This document shows positions 18,693 to 21,371 of a DNA stretch of 64,000 bases, one piece after another. Within the stretch, counting starts at the first letter, position 1; each line of letters begins with the position of its first letter. The notes beneath the pieces were generated by a model, which was not told the origin of the DNA, searched no databases, and worked only from the letters and a program-made list of their open reading frames with translations. The DNA lies in assembly GCA_016861165.1 (NCBI GenBank), contig BOKV01000008.1, forward strand, positions 83,749 through 147,748, given 5' to 3'. Source of the stretch: Alphaproteobacteria bacterium. GTDB lineage: Bacteria > Pseudomonadota > Alphaproteobacteria > Rhizobiales > Rhizobiaceae. Position numbers and translations under genes: made by a program.

Positions 18693-19001
18693 ATGAGCAA
18701 GAAGACCGCTGCCACCGCGGCAATCCTTGCCGGCGCGATGACCGCGGCCATTTCGATGGCCGCGTCGACGGCTCCGGCCAATGCCGCCAAGCTGAAGTGC
18801 TATGGCGTGGCGCTCGCCGGCCAGAACGACTGCGCCGCCGGGCCCGGCACGACCTGCGCCGGTACCTCCAAGGTCGACTACCAGGGCAACTCGTGGAAAT
18901 ATGTCGAGGCCAACAGCTGCGATGAAGTCGTCATCAAGGTCGACGGCCAGCCCGACCGCATGGGCTCGCCCGAGCCGATCGAGCGCGACCTGCCGTCCTG
19001 A
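18693..19001 (+). CDS. bufA1: BufA1-type bufferin precursor (DUF2282)
   Basis: This 102-residue precursor is of the bufferin family of copper-binding RiPPs. A signal peptide (residues 1 to about 32, ending ANAA) targets it to the periplasm. The core has four Cys at positions 36, 47, 55 and 76 in the family pattern KCYGVALAGQNDCA, TTCAGTSKVDYQGN and NSCDE. In known systems MNIO enzymes convert such Cys to thiooxazole groups. A 26-residue acidic tail follows the last Cys. Translation starts after a strong AGGAGAGG. The genes for the maturase, its partner and a DoxX protein follow in order. The 299 bp upstream, after the IalB-like gene, have no gene. A TTGACG at 18554-18559 could be a -35 box but no good -10 follows, and no GTAACC/CGAA-type ECF promoter is evident. 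Confidence 0.88.
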   Translation: MSKKTAATAAILAGAMTAAISMAASTAPANAAKLKCYGVALAGQNDCAAGPGTTCAGTSKVDYQGNSWKYVEANSCDEVVIKVDGQPDRMGSPEPIERDLPS

Positions 19002-19033
19002 TCGGCGGCTCCGTCCCTGCGGGAACGAAGCTC

Positions 19034-19957
19034 ATGCAGACCATCCTTTCGGCCAATCTGCCACCCTCGCGCTTCGTTCCGCGGCCAATCCCGGCTCGTT
19101 CCGGGGTTGGCCTCAAGGCCCAGCATGTCGGCGACATCCTGGAGACGGCCGCCGATATCGGCTTCTTCGAGGTGCATGCCGAGAACTATATGGGCGCCGG
19201 CGGCCTGCCGCATGCCCAGTTGCGGGCGATCCGCGAGCGCTATCCGTTGAGCGTGCACGGCGTCGGCATGTCGATCGGCGGCGAGGGGCGCATCGATCCG
19301 CAACATCTGGCGCGGTTCAAGGCGGTCGTCGACCACTACCAGCCCGGCCTGGTCTCCGAGCACCTGGCCTGGTCGACCCATGACGACGTGTTCTACAACG
19401 ACCTGCTGCCGCTGCCCTACACCGGCGCGACGCTGGCGCGCATCGTTGACCATGTCGGCCAGGTGCAGGAGGCGATCGGCCGGCAGATCCTGATCGAGAA
19501 CCCTTCGACCTATGTGACCTTCGCCGAATCGACGTGGAGCGAGGTCGACTTCATGACCGAGATTGCCAGGCGGTCGGGTTGCGGGCTGCTGCTCGATGTC
19601 AACAACGTGTTCGTGTCGGCGGCCAATCACGGCTATGGCGCGCGCGACTACGTGGCGGCCTACCCGCTCGACCGCGTCCAGGAGATCCATCTCGGCGGCC
19701 ACGCCAAGGACGCCGACGACGCCGGGCGGCCGCTGCTGATCGATGCCCATGACCGCGAGGTCGCCGACGATGTGTGGGCGCTCTACCGCCTGGTGCTGGC
19801 GCGCACCGGACCGCTGCCGACCCTGATCGAGTGGGACAACGACGTTCCGGCCTGGCCGATGCTGGCGGCCGAGGCCGAGCGGGCCGACCGGCTGATCGGC
19901 CGCAACCGCCCGCCGGTCCATGTCGGTTTGGCCGGCGTGGCGCTGGTGGCGCAATGA
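19034..19957 (+). CDS. bufB: MNIO family bufferin maturase BufB (DUF692)
   Basis: This is a multinuclear non-heme iron oxidative enzyme that should modify Cys residues of the BufA1 precursor in the cytoplasm. The 307-residue TIM-barrel protein keeps the likely metal ligands at the barrel mouth: VHAENYMG (47-54), VHGVGMSIGG (74-83), SEHLAWS (108-114), IENPSTY (154-160), LDVNNVFVSAANHG (187-200), EIHLGGH (217-223), DAHDREV (237-243) and IEWDNDVP (265-272). The gene starts 32 bp after bufA1 and overlaps bufC by 4 bp (ATGA). The length and all motifs are intact, so the enzyme should be active. Confidence 0.92.
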   Translation: MQTILSANLPPSRFVPRPIPARSGVGLKAQHVGDILETAADIGFFEVHAENYMGAGGLPHAQLRAIRERYPLSVHGVGMSIGGEGRIDPQHLARFKAVVDHYQPGLVSEHLAWSTHDDVFYNDLLPLPYTGATLARIVDHVGQVQEAIGRQILIENPSTYVTFAESTWSEVDFMTEIARRSGCGLLLDVNNVFVSAANHGYGARDYVAAYPLDRVQEIHLGGHAKDADDAGRPLLIDAHDREVADDVWALYRLVLARTGPLPTLIEWDNDVPAWPMLAAEAERADRLIGRNRPPVHVGLAGVALVAQ

Positions 19958-20736
19958 CCGGCGTGGCATCCGGCACCGAATCGGGTACTGCGGGCGCCGG
20001 CAATGGCGGCTTTGCCGCCGGCCTGCTCGACCCGGATGTCGAGGTGCCGGCCGAAATCAGCGGCCGCCGGGCGGCCACGCGGCGCTACGGCGTCTATCGC
20101 AACAACGTCGTCGTCGGCCTGATCGATGCGCTGAAGGCGGCCTATCCGTCGCTGCTCGTCATCATGGGCGAGATGAATTTCGCCCGCGTCGGCCGCCATT
20201 TTATTGCCGCCCATCCGCCGCGTTCGCCGATGATGCAGGACTTCGGCGCCGGCTTCGCCGAATTCCTGGCCGGCTTTGCGCCGCTGCGCGGTTCGCCGTT
20301 CCTGGCCGATGTCGCCAGGCTGGAGCGGGCCTGGCTCGAAGCCTATCACGCCGCCGACGCCGCGCCCCTGACCGGCGCCGATCTCGCGGGGCTGGCGCCG
20401 GAAGCGATGGCCGGGCTGGTGTTGCCGGCGCATCCGGCACTGGCCGTCATCTGCTCGGACCACCCGATCGGCGACCTGTTCGCCTATCGTTTCGGCCGGC
20501 CGGAGCGGGGGCCTGACCTCGCCGCCAGCCAATCGGCATTGGTGACGCGGCCCGAGCTGGAGGTGCGCGTGACGATGGTCACGCGGCCGCAGGCCCGCTT
20601 CCTCGGCTCGCTGGCGGCCGGGCAGCCGCTCGGCGAGGCAACCGAAGCGACGCTGGCGGCCGAACCCGAATTCGATCTGGCGACCGCGCTGGCGCTGGCG
20701 CTGCAAAGCGGCGCGTTTGTCCGGCCGCTTGCCTGA
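19954..20736 (+). CDS. bufC: BufC/HvfC-type RiPP maturation partner (DUF2063)
   Basis: This 260-residue soluble protein is the accessory partner that in related systems binds the MNIO enzyme and presents the precursor. The N-terminal DUF2063 domain (about 20-115) contains RRYGVYRNNVVVGLIDALKAAYP in outline, then GEMNFARVGRHFIAAHPPRSP and FGAGFAEFLAGF. The C-terminal half is mixed strands and helices, with RFLGSLAAGQPLGEA near the end. The family was once annotated as DNA-binding, which the context argues against. The ATG at 19954 overlaps the bufB stop, so translation is coupled. Confidence 0.88.
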   Translation: MTGVASGTESGTAGAGNGGFAAGLLDPDVEVPAEISGRRAATRRYGVYRNNVVVGLIDALKAAYPSLLVIMGEMNFARVGRHFIAAHPPRSPMMQDFGAGFAEFLAGFAPLRGSPFLADVARLERAWLEAYHAADAAPLTGADLAGLAPEAMAGLVLPAHPALAVICSDHPIGDLFAYRFGRPERGPDLAASQSALVTRPELEVRVTMVTRPQARFLGSLAAGQPLGEATEATLAAEPEFDLATALALALQSGAFVRPLA

Positions 20737-20768
20737 GCGGTCCGCGCGGACAGGAGAGGAACGCACAA

Positions 20769-21371
20769 ATGGTGCTGGTGGGCTGGGCGCGCGATCTCTA
20801 TGTCGGCTTGTTCGCGTGGCTGGAGAGGCTGGCGGCCGACTGGCTGCTCGGCCTGGCGGCGCGGTTCGCCTTCCTGGCGGTGCTCTATTTCTATTTCCTC
20901 GCCTCGTGGAAGACCAAGACCGGCCCCGGCCTGCTCGGCGCCTTCCGCATTGAGGACAATGCCTATTACCAGATCGTGCCGTGGGCGGTGGAGGCGGCCG
21001 GCGGCGACATCGCTGAGCTGGGGCTGGCGAGCCATCTGATCGTCTTCGCCGGGACGATGGCCGAACTGATCCTTCCGGCGCTGATCGTCGCCGGGCTGTT
21101 CACCCGCGCCGCCGCGCTCGGCATGATCGTCTTCGTGATCGTGCAGTCATGGGTCGACATCCGCTTCCATGGAGTTGACGCCCAGACCGCCGGCGCATGG
21201 TTCGACCGGTTCTCCGATTCGCTGATCGCCGACCAGCGCCTGCTGTGGGGCTTTCTGCTGCTGTTCCTGGCGGTCAAGGGCGCCGGCGCCGTGTCGCTCG
21301 ACCATCTGCTGAAGCTTAATCCCGCCGAGCGGCATGGCGAGGCGGACAAGATGACGCGACACAACAAATAG
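20769..21371 (+). CDS. DoxX family membrane protein of the bufferin operon
   Basis: The 200-residue protein has an amphipathic N-terminus (about 1-24) and about four membrane helices near 27-45, 88-115, 118-133 and 160-178, in the DoxX pattern. DoxX proteins are the usual last member of buf operons and may act in redox or export steps, but no mechanism is proven. It follows bufC by 32 bp after GGAGAGGA. The final 19 residues (KLNPAERHGEADKMTRHNK) and the TAG stop are encoded by a dispersed intergenic repeat (21312-21389), so the native C-terminus was probably replaced or extended by its insertion. Confidence 0.85.
   Translation: MVLVGWARDLYVGLFAWLERLAADWLLGLAARFAFLAVLYFYFLASWKTKTGPGLLGAFRIEDNAYYQIVPWAVEAAGGDIAELGLASHLIVFAGTMAELILPALIVAGLFTRAAALGMIVFVIVQSWVDIRFHGVDAQTAGAWFDRFSDSLIADQRLLWGFLLLFLAVKGAGAVSLDHLLKLNPAERHGEADKMTRHNK

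Follow-up and report, generated by a model that had tools for sequence, protein, structure and literature searches.

According to main-text passages of PMC12452194, Buf1 bufferins belong to DUF2282 and carry four conserved Cys, and their core genes encode the precursor, an MNIO enzyme, a DUF2063 protein and a DoxX protein. The modification sits on the central Cys, a disulphide links the outer two, and thiooxazoles chelate copper; preliminary results there make the signal peptide part of the recognition sequence. Passages of PMC13097082 report 5-thiooxazoles in all characterised cases of this enzyme group, the products of which generally bind copper, and allow for additional copper-binding factors such as DoxX. 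For thiooxazole, this literature gives an absorbance at 305 nm. The locus described here, bufA-bufB-bufC-doxX at 18693-21371 of a 64,000-nucleotide stretch of contig BOKV01000008.1 from a bacterium of the Rhizobiaceae (the window), very probably constitutes a complete Buf1 set, predicted to make a periplasmic peptide that binds copper through BufA Cys converted into thiooxazole. It represents a recurrent sub-form, in which a long DoxX and a BufA with an RDLP tail are found together and the promoter has no SigF-type site.

The Buf1 operon of Caulobacter vibrioides (CC3254-CC3257) has the same DUF2282, DUF692, DUF2063 and DoxX genes under consecutive gene numbers (PMC3511200), and is controlled by SigF-NrsF through GTAACC-N16-CGAA promoters with induction by copper (PMC3511200, PMC8224329). 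Its DoxX has 150 residues, whereas the DoxX of the window has 200 with extra loops; moreover, NrsF was not found in the window's genome and the bufA promoter has no SigF-type site. The operon of four in Sinorhizobium meliloti, SMb20530-SMb20527, also includes DUF692 and DUF2063 genes and is controlled by RpoE7-EcfR7 (ECF16) through GTAAC-type promoters, as described in passages of PMC6180224. Unlike that operon, no adjacent sigma factor of the extracytoplasmic function (ECF) type, no anti-sigma factor and no GTAAC-type promoter were found at the window locus. Captophorins (e.g. fontiphorin and oxazolin, of the EGKCG type) likewise combine an MNIO enzyme with a DUF2063/RRE partner, and their relatives carry 5-thiooxazoles (PMC13097082), but the window precursor is a DUF2282 protein with four Cys and no EGKCG repeats.

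Gene set, precursor and maturase

The four genes are on the same strand (Table 1), with gaps of 32 bp between bufA and bufB and 32 bp between bufC and doxX, and with a 4-bp overlap (ATGA) between bufB and bufC. Genes, order, spacing and coordinates are all as in the preliminary description of this DNA, and from the spacing the four are likely co-transcribed as one operon. Each product exceeds the curated cut-off of its family, PF10048 (DUF2282), PF05114 (DUF692), PF09836 (DUF2063) or PF07681 (DoxX), which places the precursor inside DUF2282, and the bufB product also exceeds the cut-off of the NCBIfam MNIO_BufB model (381.7 bits, cut-off 310). Relatives of bufA, bufB and bufC are present in 82/82 loci of sample A, so that the gene set is not a chance assembly. 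This sample consists of 80 loci reached via the window's BufB, a second locus of the same genome on contig C27 and the window itself; as a set of top matches to a single protein, it favours kin.

Table 1. Features of the bufferin locus and its flanks (window positions; bit scores are given with the curated cut-off where there is one)
Feature	Position	Strand	Details
Upstream element, GTTGATTTCCAATTGA; candidate promoter or regulator site	18574..18589	+	conserved core pattern
bufA, Buf1-type bufferin precursor	18693..19001	+	PF10048 74.9 bits, cut-off 22.4; 102 aa
C-terminal part of BufA beyond the fourth Cys (tail), with RDLPS at its end	18921..18998	+	tail in 43/43 DoxL loci
bufB, MNIO (DUF692) bufferin maturase	19034..19957	+	PF05114 347.7 bits, cut-off 25
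bufC, DUF2063 partner protein	19954..20736	+	PF09836 75.0 bits, cut-off 27.2
doxX, long form (DoxL)	20769..21371	+	PF07681 30.4 bits, cut-off 23.6
Hsp20-family gene, not in the operon; marks a conserved chromosomal place	21467..22048	-	PF00011 71.7 bits

The precursor has the four Cys described before, within KCYGVALAGQNDC and CAGTSK. These residues, Cys 36, 47, 55 and 76, are common to all 212 aligned BufA sequences (of 218), the pattern used to choose the rows itself demanding the first two. The N-terminus (KK, an Ala-rich hydrophobic stretch and ANA-A), read by eye from the sequence, is a predicted Sec signal peptide. Among 73 BufA rows of <60% identity, columns 10-22 of this peptide contain 27.9 bits compared with 21.8 (standard deviation 0.15) after shuffling within each row, and Ala is dominant at 13, 15 and 19. 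This position-wise conservation, compared within the BufA family only, suggests agreement with the published preliminary role of the signal peptide in recognition. BufB of the window retains every position conserved in at least 97% of a 195-row BufB alignment, including His, Asp and Glu residues; its nearest relatives found are in metagenome-assembled genomes of Hyphomicrobiales (71 and 69% identity). BufC gave no match to PDB sequences at E up to 1.

If the locus works like characterised Buf1 systems, BufB, together with BufC as its partner, would convert the inner Cys 47 and 55 of BufA into thiooxazoles in the cytoplasm, a disulphide would join the outer Cys 36 and 76, and the product would then reach the periplasm through Sec. 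Both the modification of Cys and copper as the ligand are drawn from characterised relatives.

Several points weigh against this reading. The NCBIfam models BufA2, HvfC and HvfX all matched below cut-off only: BufA reached 25.1 bits in the BufA2 (Buf2) model, with a cut-off of 60 (it has four Cys, not 6 or 12), and the HvfX family NF050144 was matched with 20.3 bits, with a cut-off of 80. Such sub-threshold matches fit a member of the Buf1 group. BufA also has Leu34 in place of the Glu seen in 86% of the aligned sequences, and Asn74 in place of a Gly seen in 95%. AlphaFold2 modelled BufA poorly, with a mean predicted local distance difference test score (pLDDT) of 64.5, too low for the shape of its tail to be interpreted. 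Residues 72-75 belong to EANSC before the fourth Cys, where most others have PKGTC or similar.

The unusual Leu34 and Asn74, together with a second bufferin locus in the genome that could supply the function, would fit a decayed locus or a peptide that stays unmodified. This is nevertheless very improbable, since the four frames are intact and the Cys of BufA and the conserved residues of BufB are retained, and since the stretch following the fourth Cys, DEVVIKVDGQ, recurs as DEIVIKVDGQ in the relative L310. It is also improbable, though less so, that the peptide buffers another metal or a thiol-reactive stress (e.g. Zn, Cd, Au or chromate) and not mainly copper. Some bufferins may act on other metals (PMC12452194), the SigF regulon of Caulobacter also responds to Cr and Cd (PMC3511200, PMC8224329), and control at the window locus differs from that in Caulobacter. 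On the other hand, copper is what the peptides from such clusters usually bind, as mentioned above, Buf1 of C. vibrioides does so (PMC12452194), and the Cys motif of the window's BufA is the standard one. Collectively, in the features that can be tested from sequence, the window locus is an ordinary complete Buf1 set, control by SigF-NrsF excepted, and the bufferin assignment of the preliminary description was right in every such part.

The same genome (3.49 Mb in 37 contigs, 88% complete) has its second bufferin locus on contig C27 (L085, 2402-6454, minus strand). It shares the order bufA-bufB-bufC-doxX and differs from the window locus by a short DoxX of 156 aa and a BufA tail without RDLP; no SigF-type site was found upstream of its bufA. 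The open reading frame (ORF) following this doxX presumably encodes an NDH-2-like oxidoreductase. A link of this gene to bufferins was dropped, as a relative occurs in 3/81 other loci of sample A, once on the opposite strand. An IalB-like gene upstream of the window operon was likewise not counted in the system, having no relative in the 81 other loci. Two bufA-like genes upstream of a single bufB are seen in L024, L042, L064, L073 and L082, and in L024 and L042 only one of the two copies has the RDLP tail.

The long DoxX and the BufA tail

Comparison of this locus with others relied on three further samples. A class search covered 385 genomes, 135 of which have DUF2282, and yielded sample B of 136 loci, 16 reached first via DoxX and 120 from DUF2282 places, several places cut by contig ends being skipped. 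Another 17 loci with a long DoxX, drawn from 398 genomes across the phylum, form the held-out set. Samples A and B and the held-out set overlap only by short stretches of shared DNA. The same-family set comprises 20 loci out of 35 DUF2282 places listed for the family outside the window's own genome (61 genomes searched, 34 matching). The choice was not random: it took in a locus from the same genus, the four lowest-scoring places and most of those with the highest scores. Two of its loci, L308 and L323, duplicate the DNA of L062 and L078 in sample A.

Two types of DoxX recur in samples A and B, a short one with a median of 168 aa and a long one, DoxL, with a median of 195 aa as called. DoxX, which belongs to the Buf1 core without being universal, was detected in 78/82 loci of sample A; BLAST counted 29 loci of this sample as DoxX-like, of which L042 and L050 score as the short type, leaving 27. 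The extra residues of DoxL sit in two loops. D80, D130, G142, D155 and R157 (window numbering) are identical in 43/43 DoxL and H134 is present in 98%; most of the 141 short DoxX have no such extra segment or carry other residues at these positions. The AlphaFold2 model of the window's DoxX has a mean pLDDT of 88.2, and its candidate membrane spans are the helices 25-48, 86-108, 112-133 and 157-170. The positive-inside rule suggests that both ends of the protein are inside, in which case both enlarged loops are predicted to be periplasmic. A fold search of the DoxL model in PDB gave 61 matches, none with E <=0.001.

DoxL was matched in 21/398 genomes of the phylum sample, all within the window's class, and both DoxX forms occur within the window's own bacterial family. 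It lies beside bufA in 16/16 class-search loci that reach that far (L127, which ends at a contig end after 974 bases, is outside this count) and in 17/17 held-out loci.

The BufA of the window ends in ...GSPEPIERDLPS. A full tail pattern, [GA][SA][LPT]xx[LIV]xR[DN]x?P, with R[DN]xP as its core (RDxP core), was fixed once the tails in samples A and B were known, and it admits the RDPA-type tails of one family. For the tail count, 23/136 loci of sample B with no bufB or bufC detected in the stretch were set aside, leaving 113. All DoxL loci have the full tail (27/27 in sample A and 16/16 in sample B, together 43/43), compared with 10/55 and 10/97 of the loci without DoxL (together 20/152). Fisher's test for the pairing in sample B gives p = 5e-13, a value without correction for ancestry. 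The RDxP core is present in 16/17 held-out DoxL loci. In the same-family set, the core accompanies DoxL in 10/10 loci and a short DoxX in 2/10 (p = 0.0007), or 9/9 and 2/9 once the two loci shared with sample A are removed. Insertions before RDLP and a further extension after it are seen in the BufA tails of L281, L284 and L294.

A strict pairing of tail and DoxL is weakened on three counts. Only 11/17 held-out DoxL loci have the full pattern, one held-out locus (L283) has a degenerate tail ending ETNLPAS, and the 20 loci that carry the tail without DoxL have a short DoxX or none. DoxL is thus nearly always accompanied by the tail, and the tail can occur without DoxL.

Promoter control and chromosomal place

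Upstream regions of 300 bp before bufA were scanned with one mismatch allowed in the -35 element, 5/218 regions being too short. A SigF-type site was found in 65/213 regions, with 2.97 expected from shuffles. Its occurrence varies with the DoxX type: 56/139 regions with short DoxX, 8/32 with none found and 1/42 with DoxL have the site. It was found in 0/17 held-out DoxL loci, and in the same-family set it was found with DoxL in 0/10 loci and with short DoxX in 8/10 (0/9 and 8/9 without the two shared loci). No site of the GTAACC-N16-CGAA type was found upstream of the window's bufA, and a scan of 18394-21470 for the sigma-70 consensus found none. Genome-wide, perfect SigF-type sites number 7, compared with 9 in the control, i.e. 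there is no excess. NrsF was not found in the genome, which at 88% completeness is weaker than true absence.

Instead, the region before bufA carries a conserved element (Table 1). Its core, T[GT]A[TC]TTCC[ACT]A, was taken by eye from the same loci in which it was then counted, and is present in 26/213 upstream regions with 0.34 expected; 20 of these loci have DoxL and 6 have short DoxX, and the core never occurs together with a SigF-type site. The window's element is the sole perfect match to KTTGATTTCCHATTKA in its own genome. A search of 8 genomes for TTGATTTCC gave 16 sites, compared with 1 in a backward control, and 8 of them are at bufA. The copy at bufA is perfect in 7/8 genomes, one of which has a second perfect copy elsewhere, and has one mismatch in the genome of L078. 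A TTGATTTCC regulon beyond bufA was rejected, as no link to metals was seen at the 2 of the 8 other sites that were inspected. One of these is beside what is presumably an aspartyl-tRNA-synthetase-like ORF, at the start of a small ORF, and the other is near a presumed AAA-ATPase-like ORF. A literature search for the TTGATTTCC string gave nothing on this subject among the matches listed.

In the same-family set the element is present in 6/10 DoxL loci and in 1/10 short-DoxX loci, the latter being L308. It accompanies a chromosomal place near an hsp20 gene. In this set the Hsp20 neighbour is found in 10/10 DoxL loci and 1/10 short-DoxX loci (again L308), and an Hsp20 relative is present in the fetched flank of 26/81 other loci of sample A. 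A general tie of the element to DoxL does not hold: none of the 16 sample B loci with DoxL and none of the 17 held-out loci has it, so that the element marks a lineage, not DoxL as such. L062 (the DNA of L308) and L076 have the hsp20 relative and the TTGATTTCC element, yet a short DoxX and a tail-less BufA, apparently a switch of form at one place.

The proposal that control might differ from that in Caulobacter is borne out by the missing NrsF and SigF-type promoter site, the different conserved element and the lack of a genome-wide excess of sites. Metal would induce the operon through the element at 18574-18589. Neither a copper exporter nor an ECF sigma gene lies alongside the operon, as stated before: none was found in the 11 neighbours scanned at 14355-27306, the part of the window covered gene by gene except for an ORF near 17003-17597. 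Copper P-type ATPases exceed the cut-off at three places in the genome, one of them on the window's contig and all outside the window. Sigma70_r4_2 has eleven matches in the genome, none on the window's contig.

Shared ancestry and a possible working link

The BufA tail and the enlarged DoxX loops may work together. More broadly, alphaproteobacteria might have two interchangeable bufferin operons, one switched by SigF and encoding a short DoxX, the other making a peptide whose RDLP tail would dock on conserved Asp, His and Arg residues in the periplasmic loops of DoxL, which might be a dedicated membrane receptor or copper-handling partner, with a promoter element of its own in the Hsp20-linked lineage. 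This scheme is tentative and, taken as a whole, rather unlikely.

Considerably more probable, and nearly as likely to be right as wrong, is that the long DoxX, the RDLP tail and the missing SigF site reflect shared ancestry only, tail and DoxX having no functional connection. Within a lineage, a single chromosomal place is marked by the element and the Hsp20 neighbour, and twenty loci whose DoxX is short or absent have the tail all the same. The DoxL state changes at least 10 times, and the tail 17 times, on a BufB tree (195 rows), and on a tree of BufB and BufC (194 rows) DoxL changes at least 8 times and the tail 15 times. These repeated changes argue against ancestry alone, although many fall on weakly supported branches. 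On well supported branches there are 4 to 5 independent DoxL contrasts; the tail agrees in about 3, disagrees in 0 and stays the same in the rest. A sign test on the tree contrasts is not significant (median p 0.25), which speaks against a working link, and with contrasts so few and non-significant, shared ancestry stays a serious rival. On the other hand, the DoxL loci of sample B and of the held-out set come from several families and lack the element, yet keep the tail or its core with one exception, which is evidence against ancestry alone.

Main-text passages of PMC12452194 and PMC13097082, the supplements being outside the search, name neither DoxX subtypes nor the RDLP tail nor the element, and they do not settle what DoxX does in bufferin and oxazolin clusters. 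With a precursor tail that follows one type of DoxX, there is a handle on whether DoxX touches the peptide. As promoters of one class have no SigF-type sites, bufferins are likely also switched on by at least one further route, and surveys based on SigF-NrsF would miss such operons.

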